Shown: positions 14,521-62,100 of the stretch, in pieces
How positions within the stretch are numbered: position 1 is the first letter of the stretch
Layout: the number at the start of each line of letters is the position of its first letter
Assembly (NCBI GenBank): GCA_910574835.1
Contig: CAJTDE010000010.1
Location: forward strand, 62,001 to 126,000
Direction of reading: 5' to 3'
Source: Clostridia bacterium
GTDB taxonomy: Bacteria; Bacillota; Clostridia; Lachnospirales; Lachnospiraceae
DNA: 64,000 nucleotides
The notes under the pieces: generated by a model
Database searches by the model: none
Seen by the model: only the letters and a program-made list of their open reading frames with translations
What the model was told of the DNA's origin: nothing
Position numbers and translations under genes: made by a program

Positions 14521-14567
14521 GTGTGAAAAGTAACAAAAACCGTACCACCCCCACCGTCAGGGAATGT

Positions 14568-14764
14568 CAGAAAATAGGGCGGCAGGCTTTTCCTATATCC
14601 GGTGTCCGGCTGTTCGCGTACAGGGTGTCTGATATGGACGGGCACAGCCTCAAAACCAAACCATCCCCATCCCAGTTACAAAGGCAATGTCCGTACAGAG
14701 CAGACACCCTGTACGCGAACCGTCCGAACACAGGATATGGAAATGACTGCCGCCCTATTTTCTG
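14568..14764. repeat. Nested hairpin element, copy 1 (inverted relative to copies 2-4)
   Basis: The 18-bp outer arms CAGAAAATAGGGCGGCAG (14568-14585) and its exact complement (14747-14764) enclose a 161-base interior. Core blocks CGCGTACAGGGTGTCTG (14615-14631) and its complement (14701-14717) pair perfectly. Flanking the core are GTGTCCGGCTGTT on the left and ACCGTCCGAACAC on the right, the family signature in reverse orientation. The right arm contains the stop codon of the penicillin-binding protein gene, so that gene's terminator is this structure. Confidence 0.85.
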
Positions 14765-16242
14765 ATATTCCCGTCCCCCCAAACCTCAAACACCTTCCTA
14801 GCCACCGGCACCGCATACTCACTCCCCGCCCCGGCCTTCTCAACCAACACACAAACCACAATATCATCCTCCCCCGTATCCGAAAATCCCACAAACCAGG
14901 CATGACTTTCATCCTTATTGCTGGAATACTCCGCCGTCCCCGTCTTCCCCGCAACAGGAAATCCCAGATTCCCCAGCTTGCTCCCGGTCCCTTCCGTCAC
15001 AACCGCTTTCATATACTCCGTCAAAGCCTCCGCCTCCTCCCGGGACATCAGGCTTCCATACACCGACGGATAATAATTCTTCACCACATCCCCCTCATAA
15101 GTCTCCACCCGCTCCAAAAGATAAGGCTCCATCAAAATCCCTTCATTTGCAATGCTGCTCACAATCATCGCCATATGCATAGGACTGGTCAGAGTTTCCC
15201 CTTGTCCGATAGCCGTCATCATCCGCTCCGCCGGCGTAGACCCCGCCTTCAATGTAAATGCACTTTTCGAGTAAGGAAGCTCCAACGGAAGCTCCGCATT
15301 AAACAGCAAGCTCTCGCAATTACTCTTAAAAATTCCTTCCTCCAAAGACAGTCCGATGGAAGAAAAGGCCGTATTGCAGGATTTGGCAAAGGCTTTCCGC
15401 AAATCCTCATCCCCGTGCACATTTTTCCCATAGCAGCTGATCGTATAATTACCTTCCGTCAAGCTGCCCCTGCAATTGAAATGAAAATCCTCATAGGACG
15501 GATTCTCTCTCATATAATTAAGAAGCGTTACAATCTTAAAGGTTGATCCCGGAGGATACAAGCCCTGGAGCGCCCGGTTATACAGTGCGCTCTCACTGTT
15601 ATCCTCTTTATTCAAAGCATCCCAGTCCTCATTTACGCGGTTGGGATCAAAATCCGGCTTGGAAACCATCGTAAGAATCTTCCCGGTCTTAGCCTCCAGC
15701 ACAACCACAGCCCCCCTGTGGCTGCCCAGCGCATCATAAGCGGCCTGCTGAAGCCTTGGTTCCAGAGTGGTGATTACATTATCTCCGATATTTTTTTCCT
15801 CACGAATTTCCTTGGCAATCCGCTCGCCGAAAAAAGCATTGGAGGTCAGCAGGTGAAAATTAGCCAGAGATTCAACGCCGGTTCTCCCGCGGGTGGAATA
15901 ACCAATTACATGAGCGAATGCATTTCCGTAAGGATAACTGCGGACTTCCGTTCCGTCCCCGTCAATTACTGTCTCCGCCAGCACTGTTCCGTCAGAGGCC
16001 AGAAGCTTTCCGCGCACCACGCGGTTTGCAAAGGCATCCTGCCTGGAATTGTAAGGATTATTGATTACCTCCGGGCTTAAAACCGCATCAAAATACACAA
16101 AATAACCTATCAGCAGCACAAAAAGTCCCGTAAAAAGATAAGTTATCATTGTAAGCTCATGATCCTTACCTGATCTTTTCTTTTTTCCCTGCCCCCGTTT
16201 TTTTTGCTCTTGCTTTTGCACGTTGTTTTCGCTCTTTTTCAA
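14755..16242 (-). CDS. Class B penicillin-binding protein (PBP2/SpoVD/FtsI-type transpeptidase)
   Basis: 495 residues. A basic cytoplasmic start, one membrane helix (about 31-52), then the transpeptidase domain with STFK (SxxK), SCN (SxN) and KTGTAE (KTG) active-site motifs. It cross-links peptidoglycan outside the membrane and pairs with the SEDS protein encoded upstream. Start is uncertain: TTG 16242 has GAGGA eight bases upstream but overlaps the ftsW-like gene by 77 bases; ATG 16149 just before the helix is an alternative with a poorer site. The C-terminus runs into the hairpin element, which supplies its stop codon region. Short for an FtsI, consistent with a monofunctional elongation or sporulation enzyme. 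Confidence 0.9.
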   Translation of the reverse strand: MKKSENNVQKQEQKKRGQGKKKRSGKDHELTMITYLFTGLFVLLIGYFVYFDAVLSPEVINNPYNSRQDAFANRVVRGKLLASDGTVLAETVIDGDGTEVRSYPYGNAFAHVIGYSTRGRTGVESLANFHLLTSNAFFGERIAKEIREEKNIGDNVITTLEPRLQQAAYDALGSHRGAVVVLEAKTGKILTMVSKPDFDPNRVNEDWDALNKEDNSESALYNRALQGLYPPGSTFKIVTLLNYMRENPSYEDFHFNCRGSLTEGNYTISCYGKNVHGDEDLRKAFAKSCNTAFSSIGLSLEEGIFKSNCESLLFNAELPLELPYSKSAFTLKAGSTPAERMMTAIGQGETLTSPMHMAMIVSSIANEGILMEPYLLERVETYEGDVVKNYYPSVYGSLMSREEAEALTEYMKAVVTEGTGSKLGNLGFPVAGKTGTAEYSSNKDESHAWFVGFSDTGEDDIVVCVLVEKAGAGSEYAVPVARKVFEVWGDGNIRK

Positions 16243-25711: not shown

Positions 25712-25721
25712 GGGACGGACG

Positions 25722-25800
25722 GGAGAGACAACAGGGCCGCAGGCTTTTCCGACAGCCGGACACCGGATATCGGAAATGCCTGCGGCCCTGTTGTCTCTCC
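25722..25800. repeat. Nested hairpin element, copy 2 (short form) acting as bidirectional terminator
   Basis: Perfect 23-bp arms (25722-25744 and 25778-25800; the left arm begins GGAGAGACAACAGGG) enclose TTTCCGA/TCGGAAA and the right-hand core signature CAGCCGGACACCGGATATC. The left core half and the middle stem are missing, so this is an internally deleted or minimal version. CTGTTTTTT follows on the plus strand. It lies between the converging ends of the 138-residue gene and leuA. Confidence 0.85.
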
Positions 25801-25814
25801 CTGTTTTTTGGATG

Positions 25815-27540: not shown

Positions 27541-27876
27541 CTAAAAAAGCCTTCCGTCTCTTCTACAGCTTTTATGCTGTATCCAGAGACGAAAGGCTGT
27601 CAGTTCTGCCTTACGCGGTACCACTCCGATTTGTGAATGTTCACACGCTCATCAGATACGGATTCATACGGGTCTCCCCTGAACCTTATATCTTCCCCGT
27701 TATAACGGTCGGGTTCCGTCTGCATCTACTCTCTTCGGAGGCCGAAGATTTGGGGCAGCCGCTTAGAGGTCAGTTCCAAGTCTCTCTTCCACTGCTTCAC
27801 ACCAGCCAGCAGTTCTCTGAACGCCAAGGGAAATGTACTACTCCTCATCTTTGCATTTCTCTATATCATAGGGTTA
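27541..27876 (-). promoter_or_regulatory. T-box leader, leucine (CTC specifier), controlling leuA
   Basis: Read on the minus strand: an AGTA-type box (GATGAGGAGTAGTA, about 27836-27849), the GCTGGCTGGTG apical loop, a specifier region GGAACTGACCTCTAAGC with codon CTC at 27768-27766, and the T-box antiterminator sequence AGTGGTACCGCG (27613-27625). The competing terminator is a stem at 27549-27569/27576-27597 followed by six T on the minus strand. Uncharged tRNA-Leu(GAG) would bind and let transcription reach leuA. The family is well established; the codon assignment by eye is consistent with the gene's function. Confidence 0.93.
27549..27597 (-). terminator. T-box attenuator terminator
   Basis: A long stem beginning GCCTTTCGTCTCTGGATACAG on the minus strand, pairing with CTGTAGAAGAGACGGAAGGC, then TTTTTTAG. 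Its 5' arm overlaps the antiterminator region, as in standard T-box switches. Confidence 0.88.
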
Positions 27877-29177: not shown

Positions 29178-29684
29178 ATGAAAATTCGAGAGGGTACAAA
29201 CTTAATTGCCGGGATTGTCTTTTCTCTGGCTGCCGGGATATTATTGCATTTTGTCTATGAATGGTCCGATGCAAATCCCTTTGTGGCGCTTTTTGCTCCG
29301 GTAAATGAATCTGTGTGGGAGCATTTGAAAATGCTGTTTTTTCCGGTTTTTCTTTATACGTTGTTTGAGGTAATCGTGCTGTTTAAGACTTCGGGGCGGT
29401 TCCTTACTTCGCGGATTGCAGGGGTGCTTCTGGGGATGTTCTTTATTGTAGCCGCTTTTTTTACTTATACCGGAGTCAGCGGGAAGGATTATTTGGTGGT
29501 GGATATTTTGATTTTTGTGTTTGGTGTTTTGATCACTTTTTTGGCTTCCCGGTATTTTGAGGTACAGTGCCCGGGGATGCATCTGCCGCTTTTGGCGAAT
29601 TATGCGCTTTTGCTGCTGCTTGTGATTTGCTTTTTTTCTTTTACTTTTAGTCCGCCGGGGTTGCCTATGTTTTATACAGTTTAA
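29178..29684 (+). CDS. DUF6512-type integral membrane protein
   Basis: 168 residues from ATG 29178 (AGGAG seven bases upstream); the frame stays open to 29091 through the leader block but with no better site. Five hydrophobic segments. The segment GILLHFVYEWSDANPFVALFAPVNESVWEHLKMLFFPVFLYTLFE is the hallmark I recall for DUF6512 (His, Glu and Trp conserved inside the membrane). Function unknown. It has a structured leader and a terminating hairpin element (copy 3), so it is a single-gene transcript. Confidence 0.82.
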   Translation: MKIREGTNLIAGIVFSLAAGILLHFVYEWSDANPFVALFAPVNESVWEHLKMLFFPVFLYTLFEVIVLFKTSGRFLTSRIAGVLLGMFFIVAAFFTYTGVSGKDYLVVDILIFVFGVLITFLASRYFEVQCPGMHLPLLANYALLLLLVICFFSFTFSPPGLPMFYTV

Positions 29685-29691
29685 GAGGGAC

Positions 29692-29890
29692 GCAAAATAA
29701 GCCGGCAGACTTTTCCATATCCCGTGTTCGGACGGTTCGCGTACACCGGTCTGCTCTTGTCGGACAAACGGTTTGATGTCTTTGTGGGCTTCGCCCCTTG
29801 AGACTTGGAACGTTTGTCCGCCAATATCAGACAGGCGTACGCGAACAGCCGGACACTGGGATACCGGAAAAGTCTGCCGGCTTATTTTGC
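29692..29890. repeat. Nested hairpin element, copy 3 (full length)
   Basis: Perfect 25-bp outer arms (29692-29716 and 29866-29890; the left arm begins GCAAAATAAGCCGGCAG). Inside: core left TGTTCGGACGGTTCGCGTAC, core right GTACGCGAACAGCCGGACAC, and a middle stem CGGACAAACG/CGTTTGTCCG (29761-29770, 29811-29820) around a smaller GC-rich hairpin. It starts eight bases after the DUF6512-type gene stop and separates it from the convergent exosortase gene. Confidence 0.88.
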
Positions 29891-51453: not shown

Positions 51454-53040
51454 ATGACAAAACAAATCAGCCTCAAACGGCGCTTAATTCTGCCCATTGC
51501 CCTTCTGGGGATTGTGGCGCTTATTTCCAATGCCTTAGCTGTTATCAATATACATAATGTCAATTCCAATGCAGCCAATATTGCGGATAATCTGATGTCA
51601 GGGAAAAGCCGGCTTGCAGAGATTTCCGAATCTGCCATGAATATTCACAATCTGGCCCTCTCCCACATTGTGGCAACGGATTATAATACAATGATTACGG
51701 TGGTAAATGAGATTAAGGAGGAGGAAGCCTTATTGGACAATATGCTCCTGGAGTACGAAGGCTTTGTTACGGAGGAAGACCAAAAGGAGTATGAGGCTCT
51801 TTTGTCCGCCTATGATTCCTTTAAGCATGCTTTGGTCAATCTAGTGTGTAAGAGCGCCAGTCATAAGACCCAGGAAGCTTATCTTCTCGCCAATGAGGAT
51901 GTGGCTCTTTTTGCCGGAACTATTGAGGCCAGTATTGACGCCCTGGATGCTTCCATCAGTGAGCAGACCTCCGATGCCAGAGGGCAGCTCTCGGCGGTAT
52001 ATGTGATTTCTCTGATTGTCAGTGTTCTTTCCATTGCCATCTGTACGGCCCTTGTGTTTGGAACCATTTCTTTAATTCTGAAATATGTGGTGACACCCAT
52101 TAAGAGTATTTTGAGTACGATTCGCGACAGCTCGGATCGCATTGATGATATGACGAGTGAGGTACGCAAGCGAACGGCTACTTCCCGGGAAAGTGTGTCG
52201 GATCTGTCCAATCTGATGCAGCAGCTCTCGTCAACGATTCAGGAGGTGGCCAGCAATGCCGCTGTGATTACGGCAAGCGCTGAGGAAGTGAACCGGGATG
52301 CCCACGGTACGGCGGAGGAATGTGCAAGTATTACGGCCTATTCCGTGGCTATGAAGGCACGGGCGGATGATCTGGAGCAGTCGGCTAAGACGAATGTGGA
52401 GGTTACCAGCGCTAAGGCGGCGGATATTTTGGAGTCTTTAAATGAAGCGATTGCCCAGAGCCGCAGCGTGGATCAGGTGAACAGTCTTACGGATGAGATT
52501 TTGAAGATTTCACAGACTACCCGGCTGATTGCTCTGAATGCTACGGTGGAGGCGGCCAATGCAGGGGCCGCGGGCAAGGGCTTTTCTATGGTTGCAAAGG
52601 AAATCCGGCAGCTTGCCAATTCCAGCAGTGATGCGGCCAATCGGATTCAGGAGATTAATTCGGTTGTTACTTCTGCTGTTTATAATCTTTCTCAGAATGC
52701 GCAGAATCTGGTGGATTATATGAACAGCTCTATTTTGACGGAGTTTCAGGAGTTTGTGCGGTCGGGGAAGCAGTATCAGGAGGATGCGGCTTATATCAAG
52801 CAGTCGATGGATAACTTTAAGGAGCGGACGGAGCATTTGCGGGGATCTATGTCCGGGATTGTGGAATCTATTGGGGCGATTACGACGGTGATTGGGGAAG
52901 GCGCTTCCGGGATTTCGGGGGTTGCGGACAGTACGAGGAGTTTGGTGATTGATATGGAGGATATTACGCAGAGGATGGGGGTGAATCAGGCTATTGTTGG
53001 GGAGTTGAAGGAGGAGACGGTGGTGTTTGATAATCTTTAA
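51454..53040 (+). CDS. Methyl-accepting chemotaxis protein
   Basis: 528 residues; TTGGAGG before the ATG. First membrane helix 12-32, an external four-helix-bundle-type sensor (about 35-185), second helix about 188-212, HAMP-like segment (VTPIKSILSTIRDSS), then the long cytoplasmic signalling hairpin. The tip reads EILKISQTTRLIALNATVEAANAGAAGKGFSMVAKEIRQLANSSSDAA, a variant of the canonical QTNLLALNAAIEAARAGE in which several core residues differ. It starts 89 bases after the binding-protein stop and is likely co-transcribed. Other chemotaxis genes are not in the window. Confidence 0.92.
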   Translation: MTKQISLKRRLILPIALLGIVALISNALAVINIHNVNSNAANIADNLMSGKSRLAEISESAMNIHNLALSHIVATDYNTMITVVNEIKEEEALLDNMLLEYEGFVTEEDQKEYEALLSAYDSFKHALVNLVCKSASHKTQEAYLLANEDVALFAGTIEASIDALDASISEQTSDARGQLSAVYVISLIVSVLSIAICTALVFGTISLILKYVVTPIKSILSTIRDSSDRIDDMTSEVRKRTATSRESVSDLSNLMQQLSSTIQEVASNAAVITASAEEVNRDAHGTAEECASITAYSVAMKARADDLEQSAKTNVEVTSAKAADILESLNEAIAQSRSVDQVNSLTDEILKISQTTRLIALNATVEAANAGAAGKGFSMVAKEIRQLANSSSDAANRIQEINSVVTSAVYNLSQNAQNLVDYMNSSILTEFQEFVRSGKQYQEDAAYIKQSMDNFKERTEHLRGSMSGIVESIGAITTVIGEGASGISGVADSTRSLVIDMEDITQRMGVNQAIVGELKEETVVFDNL

Positions 53041-53051
53041 AAGGTGGTCGG

Positions 53052-53265
53052 TTTTGAGAGAAAAGAGGCCCCCGGGCTTTTCCATATCTGTGTTCGGACG
53101 GTTCGCGTACAGTCTGTCTGCTCTTGTCGGACTAACGTTTTTGGGATTTGACAGGCTGCGCCTGTTGGAGTTTTTTGACGTTAGTTCGCCAATTTCAGAC
53201 AGACTGTACGCGAACAGCCGGACACCTGATATCGGAAAAGCCCGGGGGCCTCTTTTCTCTCAAAA
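53052..53265. repeat. Nested hairpin element, copy 4 (full length, longest arms)
   Basis: Perfect 32-bp outer arms (53052-53083 and 53234-53265; the left arm begins TTTTGAGAGAAAAGAGG). Inside: GCGTACAGTCTGTCTG (53105-53120) with its exact complement (53196-53211), a middle stem ACTAACGT/ACGTTAGT (53131-53138, 53178-53185) and the apical hairpin ACAGGCTGCGCCTGT. The core signature TGTTCGGACGGTTCGCGTAC / CGAACAGCCGGACACCTGAT is as in copy 3. It starts 11 bases after the chemoreceptor stop and faces the convergent leuD gene. Confidence 0.9.
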
Positions 53266-53317
53266 CCTCTGGTTGGCGGTGGTACTGTGGTTTGTTTTTA
53301 GGATGCTTGCTGTCTTT

Positions 53318-53803
53318 TTATTTTTCGTTGATGTAGTTGATTAGGCCTTCTGCTTTGATGATGCGCTGCATAAATTCGGGGAAGGCCTGGCCTTGGTATT
53401 GTTTGCCGGTGGTGAGGTTGCGGATGGTTCCGCTGTCAAAGTCTACTTCTACTTCGTCGCTGTCTTTGATGTCTCTTGCGGCTTCCGGGCACTCGATGAT
53501 GGGGAGGCCGATGTTGATGGCGTTGCGGTAAAAGATCCGGGCGAAGGTTTCGGCGATGACGCAGGAGATGCCGGATACTTTGATGACCAGGGGGGCGTGC
53601 TCCCGGGAGGAGCCGCAGCCGAAGTTTTTGTTTGCTACTATGATGTCGCCGGGGTGTACTTTGCGGACGAAGTCTTGGTCTATGTCTTCCATGCAATGTT
53701 CGGCCAGTTCTTTGGGGTCTGCTATGGCCAGGTATCTGGCCGGGATGATTACGTCGGTGTCTACATTGTCTCCGTATTTGAATACGTTTCCTTTTGCCTG
53801 CAT
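53318..53803 (-). CDS. leuD: 3-isopropylmalate dehydratase small subunit
   Basis: 161 residues; AGGAG before the ATG. Marks: [31 protein letters not shown] and the following [20 protein letters not shown]. Forms the heterodimeric aconitase-like enzyme with LeuC, isomerising 2- to 3-isopropylmalate. It follows leuC by 51 bases on the same strand. The short (about 160-residue) type is the archaeal/clostridial HacB-like group. Confidence 0.96.
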
Positions 53804-61071: not shown

Positions 61072-62052
61072 GTGTCAAATATCAGTATTTGCGACGTGGC
61101 AAAGCATGCAGGGGTATCCATCGCTACTGTGAGCCATGTGATTAACAATACACGCTCCGTAAAAGAAGAAACAAGGAATCTGGTACTGAACAGTATTCAG
61201 GAATTAAACTACAGCCCCAATACGGCGGCCCGCAGCTTCAAGACAGGAAAGAGAAATCTGATTGCATTTATTGTTCCGGATATCTCCAACCCGTTTTTTG
61301 CAACGCTGATTGAAGAAGTGGAAATGGTAATTGCCAAAGAAGCCCTCCATCTCCTCGTAGTTAATACAAAAGAGACAAAGGAACGGGAAATAACGAACCT
61401 GCGGTTTTTGGCAAACGGAGGAGTAGACGGCTTTCTTCTGGCCTCCACATTTGACAATTATGCGGAAATGGAAGACGTGATTCCAAAGCATATACCGGTA
61501 GTTCTGGTAGATCGGCGGCCGGCGGGAGCGCCCTATGATTCGGTTATCGTAGCCAATTATCAGGCTGTTTACAGCAGCGTCGAATACCTGATCCGAAAAG
61601 GCCATACCAGGATCGGATATATTACAGGTCTTCCCAGGATTACGACGACTGCCGAACGGCTTGAAGCGTACCAGGACGCTATGGAGGCAAACAATCTCTC
61701 CACGGAAGGCTTTATCCGCACCGGAACATCCATGTCCGCCCTTGTATCCGAGAACCTTGATATCCTCCTTGCACAAGACTGCAGCGCTTTGATTGTCTCC
61801 AATAATATGATGGCGATTCAGGCCATGATGCTTTTAGATCAGAGGGGAATCCGTGTCCCCCAGGATATTGAGCTTATCGGCTATATGGACAGCGCCCAGC
61901 CGCAATACGGCACGCAGTATATGAGCCTTATCCGCCAGCCGGTGGTTGATATGGGACGAACGGCCGGGCAGCGCCTTATAGAACGGCTGAAAAACCAGGA
62001 TATTCCTCTGCGCGAAACGCTTCTGCGCGCTGATTTTATCCCGGTACACTAG
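61072..62052 (+). CDS. LacI-family transcriptional regulator of the sugar importer
   Basis: 326 residues from GTG 61072 (AAAGGAAG upstream; the frame extends to 61024 without a site). Helix-turn-helix ISICDVAKHAGVSIATVSHVINNTRSVKEETRNLVLNSIQELNYSPNTAARSFKTG, then the periplasmic-binding-like sensor domain (AFIVPDISNPFFATLIEEVEM, IPVVLVDRRPAG, IGYITGLPRITTTAERLEAY). Divergent from the importer operon, so it most likely represses it until the sugar or its phosphate binds. Its stop codon lies in the left arm of the terminator hairpin. Confidence 0.93.
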   Translation: MSNISICDVAKHAGVSIATVSHVINNTRSVKEETRNLVLNSIQELNYSPNTAARSFKTGKRNLIAFIVPDISNPFFATLIEEVEMVIAKEALHLLVVNTKETKEREITNLRFLANGGVDGFLLASTFDNYAEMEDVIPKHIPVVLVDRRPAGAPYDSVIVANYQAVYSSVEYLIRKGHTRIGYITGLPRITTTAERLEAYQDAMEANNLSTEGFIRTGTSMSALVSENLDILLAQDCSALIVSNNMMAIQAMMLLDQRGIRVPQDIELIGYMDSAQPQYGTQYMSLIRQPVVDMGRTAGQRLIERLKNQDIPLRETLLRADFIPVH

Positions 62053-62100
62053 TAGTCCGTATCGGAAATATGCACAAGGATTTCCGATACGGACTACTAG
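62049..62100. terminator. Perfect 21-bp hairpin, bidirectional terminator containing both stop codons
   Basis: The left arm 62049-62069 begins CTAGTAGTCCGTATCGG and its exact complement is 62080-62100, with a ten-base loop ATGCACAAGG. The TAG of the LacI gene (62050-62052) and the TAG of the convergent lipase gene (62097-62099) lie at equivalent positions in the two arms. It resembles the outer stems of the nested hairpin elements but lacks their core. Confidence 0.85.

Follow-up and report, generated by a model that had tools for sequence, protein, structure and literature searches.

The window, the 64-kb stretch of DNA analysed here, contains a long inverted repeat between two convergent genes: a plus-strand gene for a methyl-accepting chemotaxis protein (Pfam; 51454–53040), and a minus-strand gene with an Aconitase_C domain (53318–53803), which from our reading of that domain would be leuD-like and is called leuD below. 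The repeat begins 9 nt past the stop codon of the chemotaxis gene, to which it lies in sense orientation, and its far end is 50 nt from the convergent neighbour. On the plus strand it consists of a left arm (53050–53083; 34 nt, with CTTTTCC at its end), a 150-nt core (53084–53233) with a bulged inner hairpin and the boxes ATATC..GTGTTCGGACGGTTC and GAACAGCCGGACAC..GATAT, and a right arm (53234–53267) that is the reverse complement of the left one, at 100% complementarity. A sequence-only reading had described the same feature, rightly with perfect arms, but as 32-bp arms spanning 53052–53265, 2 bp short at each end of the 34 bp that we measure.

Three further copies lie in the window: a second full copy with 25-bp perfect arms (29692–29890, plus strand), 7 nt after an ORF ending at 29684; a third full copy (14560–14772, minus strand) with 34-nt arms that are 91% complementary, where the upstream minus-strand ORF terminates within the outer arm, at 14755; and an internally deleted copy (25721–25801, plus strand) with 39-nt arms that are 92% complementary, in which the left arm through CTTTTCC is fused to the right box CAGCCGGACACCGGATATCGGAAA. 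The window has three exact matches to the motif TGTTCGGACGGTTCGCGTAC in a search that allowed up to 3 mismatches, against 0 expected from 100 dinucleotide shuffles. The ORF listing agrees with the earlier statement that all four sites lie 3′ of genes and three of them between convergent genes: the sites at 25721, 29692 and 53050 are between convergent ORFs and that at 14560 between tandem minus-strand ORFs. A hairpin at 62049–62100 had been taken for an unoccupied site, which it probably is not: it has neither core boxes nor the arm consensus, spans two convergent ORF ends and is probably a bidirectional terminator. It has the short string TATCGGAAAT/ATTTCCGATA in common with the inner ends of the element, by which it could conceivably be a remote relative. 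Its stem is 21 bp and perfect, and half of its sequence recurs, with one mismatch, in the flank of an element copy elsewhere (L031). The window also holds a T-box leader (27582–27860, minus strand; 101.7 bits). In Rfam 15, no match above the gathering score was found at the window elements or at five loci with remote forms of the element, the best sub-threshold match at the window copy being to a microRNA family (E 0.52).

The unit measures 160–220 bp. Outermost is a G-rich spacer after the stop codon, often GGGGACGGAC, followed by arms with a median length of 34, which often have GGG at the start and CTTTTCC or CATTTCC at the end. Next inward from the arm is ATATC, which a short internal loop separates from GTGTTCGGACGGTTC; a variable stem then leads to GTCTGCTCT and to an inner hairpin whose loop is rich in G and T. 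The other side of the core is a near-mirror of the first. The mirror symmetry is imperfect, most copies having retained an additional base in front of GGAAA as well as an internal loop around ACG/AG. With 42 diverse cores as input, RNAalifold predicted 48 pairs, 31 of them with two-sided changes. In the core alignment 95.2% of cells pair, a figure that favours the predicted structure because this was predicted from the same 42 sequences; 0 of 500 shuffles reached any of five measures, and sliding the partner by 1–3 columns lowered pairing to 33–44%. One U–G pair of the core is kept in 40 of the 42 sequences. By eye, the unpaired loops and the regions 3′ of the right arm are strongly G/T-rich on the sense strand in many copies.

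The source genome (G000; a gut bacterium of the Clostridia, probably of the family Lachnospiraceae; 5.0 Mb in 133 contigs) holds at least 64 copies of the element among 67 fetched loci: 60 with both ends and four (L050, L060, L061 and L064) without the right-end box. Three loci, L063, L066 and L067, were rejected as elements when the 67 were inspected. Copies are thus far more numerous than the four of the window, as emerged from a genome-wide motif search that had been suggested with the first reading of the sequence. This search gave 68 matches at up to 2 mismatches, all fetched except C4:104942, and 77 at up to 3 mismatches; matches at 3 mismatches were not used because a reversed control pattern gave 26. 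A DNA search of the same genome gave 68 matches at 41 places, many being one copy on both strands. The 137 matches to a covariance model in this genome are not taken as a copy number, because a palindrome can match both strands and scoring covered up to 150 candidates per genome. Many of the listed unpaired ends are chance matches in coding sequence, and altered copies were picked by eye; the locus L313, tagged as an element, is a false match.

Within the genus, the DNA search found the element in 11 of 16 genomes, and outside it in 0 of 45 (up to 13 candidates scored per genome in both), while the covariance model found it in 15 of the 16, the exception being G004. Under strict filters, four of 299 family genomes matched the model, two from the same genus and one each from two other genera. 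Remote relatives of the core were seen in two other genera, at L256, L260 and L263 (G181) and L257 (G135), and the arms of these four copies look, by eye, mutually unrelated and terminator-like. The named loci are among the matches listed for an exact motif, so they sample the copies of their genomes with a bias.

The element has a marked position and orientation relative to genes. A simple gene call placed an upstream gene on the element's own strand for 48 of 60 copies. Among the 56 copies in G000 with enough flank, 33 have a sense stop codon (ORF of at least 100 codons) no more than 20 nt from the left arm, and none has an antisense stop equally close to the right arm; for all fetched species the corresponding counts are 68 and 5 of 134. 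The distance from stop codon to element is usually 3–17 nt, the orientation is mostly sense, and in some copies, such as L029 in the window, the ORF ends within the arm. Upstream genes, of which 20 of the 38 listed were scanned with Pfam, include those for ketol-acid reductoisomerase, SmpB, an SRP54-type GTPase, enolase, ThiI and nicotinate phosphoribosyltransferase, with no transposase among the 20; we read the Pfam matches for the reductoisomerase and the GTPase as ilvC and ftsY, respectively.

Being mostly in sense orientation right behind stop codons, the element would provide many mRNAs with a hairpin at their 3′ end. The layout A-tract, stem, T-tract is seen in about half of the copies, and two copies in G011 present it clearly as an intrinsic terminator (CCTCTGC, core, GCAGAGG, TTTTTT). 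By a loose test, right arms have a T-tract in only 27 of 57 cases in G000, hence any terminator function would not be uniform across copies. Placement, orientation and the terminator layout of about half of the copies probably reflect an mRNA 3′-end hairpin, and the element may act as a transcription terminator or as a 3′-end stabiliser.

The arms of different copies are homologous, with a mean pairwise identity of 54%, compared to 28% for shuffled arms. Within copies (59 of 60; L065 was excluded), 1528 of 1578 arm pairs outside TTTTCC are Watson–Crick. For arm positions 11 and beyond, in 55 copies, 1315 of 1336 pairs are Watson–Crick, with 4 G–T, 11 A–C and 6 other, and at many of these positions all four pair types are used. 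Over all 1578 pairs A–C exceeds G–T (23 vs 7, p 0.005), part of the excess lying at positions 7–10, where some copies have a common asymmetry; from position 11 on, 11 vs 4 is not significant (p 0.12). The core stem adjoining the arms (20 positions, 60 copies) has 33 A–C and 20 G–T. The scarcity of G–T in the arms and the adjoining core stem is not the G–U-rich pattern to be expected if pairing were maintained solely through selection on the sense RNA. Between copies, the distances of arms and of cores were not correlated (Mantel r 0.05; 390 of 2000 permutations as high), the core distance being noisy because the variable loop is included.

How the arms change could be followed in orthologous copies. 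There are 50 orthologous pairs among the fetched loci, and 47 were counted after three L069 pairs had been dropped because a one-base indel shifts their register; pairs share loci and hence are not independent. At a flank identity of at least 97% (19 pairs) we found 13 one-sided and 1 two-sided paired arm changes; at 86–97% (15 pairs), 8 and 29, respectively; and below 86% (13 pairs), 15 and 81, together with 10 two-sided unpaired changes. Since one-sided changes dominate among close pairs and paired two-sided changes among distant ones, the arms appear to alter on one side first and to be matched later. Some changes come as blocks on both sides (L109/L122). At the leuD–mcp site, where six species have the element, the core of G012 is flipped relative to that of G013, with 96 of 105 positions identical when flipped and 87 of 105 when not, and the arms of G013 are those most similar to the ones of G012. 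The flanks of the G012 copy match four other copies of the same locus in the opposite orientation. The flip comparison was made with the G005 and G007 rows left out, as the sequence cut stopped early in these, and the inversion is one event, 44 other pairs with both flanks being unflipped. By eye, the cores of L072 and L158 are more symmetric and the short ilvC copy of G002 is close to a perfect palindrome.

We next consider sites with and without the element; a site counts as lacking it if no core box lies up to 330 nt from the stop codon. Six species carry the element behind smpB, and the other ten loci do not; G006 has two smpB contigs (loci L201 and L217), the second of which also has the element, encodes a protein identical to that of G000 and G007, and is probably a contamination. 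Five species carry it behind ftsY, the copy of G012 being truncated; in G013 the left arm alone is found, joined to the right flank, G006 has a left-arm remnant and nine have nothing. Behind ilvC, G000 and G007 have the element, G002 a short form and G012 a remnant, and ten have nothing; the G003 locus leaves its contig. By eye, ordinary terminators that do not resemble the arms lie at the ilvC sites without the element in G005, G004 and G013, and the leuD–mcp site without it in G006 has an unrelated 10-bp hairpin; eight other genomes with leuD have different neighbours there and are not comparable.

Of 29 loci compared from the genome B90_2, 23 match a fetched copy in G000. At L190 and L191 G000 lacks the core and inner right arm present in B90_2 (junction GGCTTT^TCC), and L155 has an internal core deletion in B90_2. 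For L190 this is a loss in G000, because the outgroup C56_79 is occupied (L124). The B90_2 sites L189 and L192 meet diverged or rearranged G000 flanks without the element, and L114 has only a 70% match in G000. Core-less sites that retain arm sequence (L190, L191, ftsY in G013 and 25721 in the window) are best read, from their alignments, as deletions, and most have short direct repeats at their ends. The high-copy clade, sampled to a limited extent and by motif, yielded no new insertion. A single site, behind an ABC transporter gene, gives a clean comparison of presence and absence: G014 and G015 are occupied, G011 has a remnant and G010 is without it, 135 bp being absent by alignment. The G010 site is best read as a precise loss, because close relatives carry the element. 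Imperfect direct repeats of ~12–16 bp surround the G014/G015 copy; they may be an old target duplication, which we slightly favour, or, being nearly self-complementary, arms.

The reading we prefer, whose probability we judge evenly balanced, takes the whole hairpin, arms and core together, as the unit: an old, non-autonomous, dispersed palindromic repeat that would form an mRNA 3′-end hairpin and whose arms would be kept perfect at least partly by template switching. It draws on features that were computed directly (copy number, arm homology, sense orientation and stop distance, the covarying structure with conserved asymmetric bulges, paired arm divergence, deletions and the one core inversion). 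Several findings count against it: the T-tract in only 27 of 57 right arms; the lack of correlation between core and arm distances, which would not be expected on a simple one-unit view; the absence of new insertions from the limited sample of the high-copy clade; and the absence, in a search of the Y1 family, of a transposase carrying the ends. If replication switched template from one arm to the other, a change in one arm would be copied to the other, and the core could also be flipped or symmetrised. The conserved bulges, erasable by such correction, would presumably be held by selection, for example as a protein binding site or an RNA motif, and a putative factor would once have spread the family. 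In a bolder form, which we put forward tentatively and as somewhat improbable, replication writes the perfect arms of a dispersed 3′-end hairpin, copies drift as matched pairs, and selection keeps only the asymmetric core boxes, the recognition site of the putative spreading factor. According to the accessible text of one study, template switching in replication is known to give two-sided multi-base changes and loop inversions, and a loop inversion with a compensatory change is regarded by its authors as the strongest possible support and as extremely rare (PMC8794818). The element resembles the cases in that text in its two-sided multi-base changes and its loop inversion with compensatory change; those cases lie in RNA genes, whereas the element is repeated dozens of times across a genome.

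Two-sided arm changes can also arise by selection on RNA. On an explanation that we consider unlikely, selection acts simply on an RNA, as an intrinsic terminator or a hairpin at the 3′ end, and its pairing is regained through ordinary compensatory point mutations. Several points favour this: the sense orientation 3–17 nt behind stop codons, the T-tracts of 27 of 57 right arms and, clearly, of the two G011 copies, and the core U–G wobble kept in 40 of 42 sequences. Against it are the scarcity of G–U both in the arms (7 G–T vs 23 A–C in 1578) and in the adjoining core stem (20 vs 33), the block changes on both sides in L109/L122 and the flipped core of G012. Intrinsic terminators, bidirectional ones included, lie 3′ of genes and are laid out as A-tract, GC stem and T-tract. 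Many element copies share this layout and position; the element differs in its 150-nt structured and conserved core, in an outer stem that continues past the T-tract, and in that about half of the copies have no T-tract by the loose test.

A doubtful explanation is that the element is moved as a single-strand DNA hairpin by a putative transposase for which the conserved bulges would be the recognition site, in the manner of REP/RAYT or IS200/IS605. Its appeal lies in the conserved asymmetric boxes at both core ends, the many copies, and the ~12–16 bp imperfect direct repeats around the copy in G014 and G015 that are absent in G010. A linked transposase had been proposed as something to look for, and our search for one, made for the Y1 family, found none carrying element ends: G000 has four Y1 matches, and the flanks fetched for them, of at most 1.5 kb and in one case shortened by a contig end, contain no element ends, which counts against this explanation. 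Also against it, no long copy with the same but distant ends occurs among the fetched loci (67 of the 68 G000 motif matches at up to 2 mismatches, and other genomes in part). Two inverted copies in G011 (L075) were considered as the ends of an autonomous element and rejected: the gene between them is not a transposase but, on our reading, a CPBP-like membrane protease, and each copy lies behind its own ORF. Likewise, terminal inverted repeats in common with a full-length relative, as for a MITE of a DDE insertion sequence, were not found among the fetched loci. ERIC, RUP, BOX and other MITE-like repeats of bacteria are imperfect, intergenic palindromes of about a hundred bp; compared with these, the arms of the element differ by copy yet match each other, and its position is tied to the stop codon.

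The element is, like REP, BIME and REPIN sequences, palindromic, multi-copy and extragenic; it differs from them in its copy-specific arms, bulged core and strong sense preference, and no Y1 gene with the repeat at its ends was found in G000. In the accessible text of the respective reports, REP repeats flank the RAYT (Y1) transposase gene as inverted pairs (PMC2817692), an arrangement found at none of the four Y1 matches in G000, and a REP is a palindrome of 20–40 bp with a GTAG or CGTC tag (PMC3733652), compared with 160–220 bp for the element, a comparison on size alone. A further report, as far as its accessible text goes, counts 446 of 4072 E. coli REPs within 15 nt of a stop codon and describes ribosome stalling by such REPs (PMC12306157); by analogy, the element might affect translation. 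The accessible part of a survey of stem-loop families in bacterial genomes names two Clostridium species (PMC2267715). No description of the element family was found among the best-ranked matches of a literature search, most subscription papers being outside its reach.

The sequence-only reading had proposed that a mobile core enters the loops of existing intrinsic terminators, whose stems become the arms. Much of its description holds: there is a repeat family with a conserved core, copy-specific arms, a position 3′ of genes and no transposase of its own. That the arms are pre-existing terminator stems, on the other hand, is not supported, and for this clade the data do not point to entry of a core into host terminator loops. 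Identical arms in every copy had been named as a result that would speak against the proposal, and here the arms have a family consensus (54% identity) yet differ between copies. Orthologous sites without the element either have no arms (leuD–mcp in G006; ilvC in G005, G004 and G013, with other terminators) or look like deletions, with polarity established for L190. Among 22 hairpins listed in 286 kb of G000 (seed 12, loop of at most 60, stem of at least 14), the one with the arm consensus, L061, has a core, and none is a core-less hairpin with the consensus. Behind the ABC transporter gene, the G010 site without the element is a small palindrome, CATAACAAGGTTATG, which speaks for the loop proposal, but the G014 element is outside its loop and has one version of the palindrome on each side. 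For this clade we reject the arms as host terminators on the basis of arm homology, the 22 hairpins and the leuD–mcp and ilvC sites, and we regard loop insertion as quite improbable, despite the copy-specific arms, the uncorrelated arm and core distances and the mutually unrelated, terminator-like arms of the four copies in two other genera. Terminator capture at the origin of a copy is conceivable, because arm and core similarity are uncorrelated and the remote arms are terminator-like.

Work on the evolution of RNA and palindromes has long asked how long stems stay perfectly paired even as their sequence diverges. With about sixty long stems in one genome and orthologues at graded distances in five close species, the order of events is directly readable: a one-sided change and then the matching change, loop inversion, and deletion. 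The element is also an example of a repeat family that, in one genus, has settled at the 3′ ends of ordinary housekeeping genes, such as those for ketol-acid reductoisomerase, SmpB, the SRP54-type GTPase and enolase.

G000 is rich in small repeats. The flanks of L006, L015, L103, L034 and others contain further dispersed repeats of ~55–170 bp that are common to many loci. Copies from several species (L043, L051, L053, L206 and L223) carry an additional small hairpin (CAGCAATAAGGAATCCTCCC...TCCTTATNACAACG), inserted in each at one same point of the core, as if targeting the element. Another insert (CCCAGGCCGCC...) lies directly after GTGTTCGG in two copies from low-copy species, L295 and L315.
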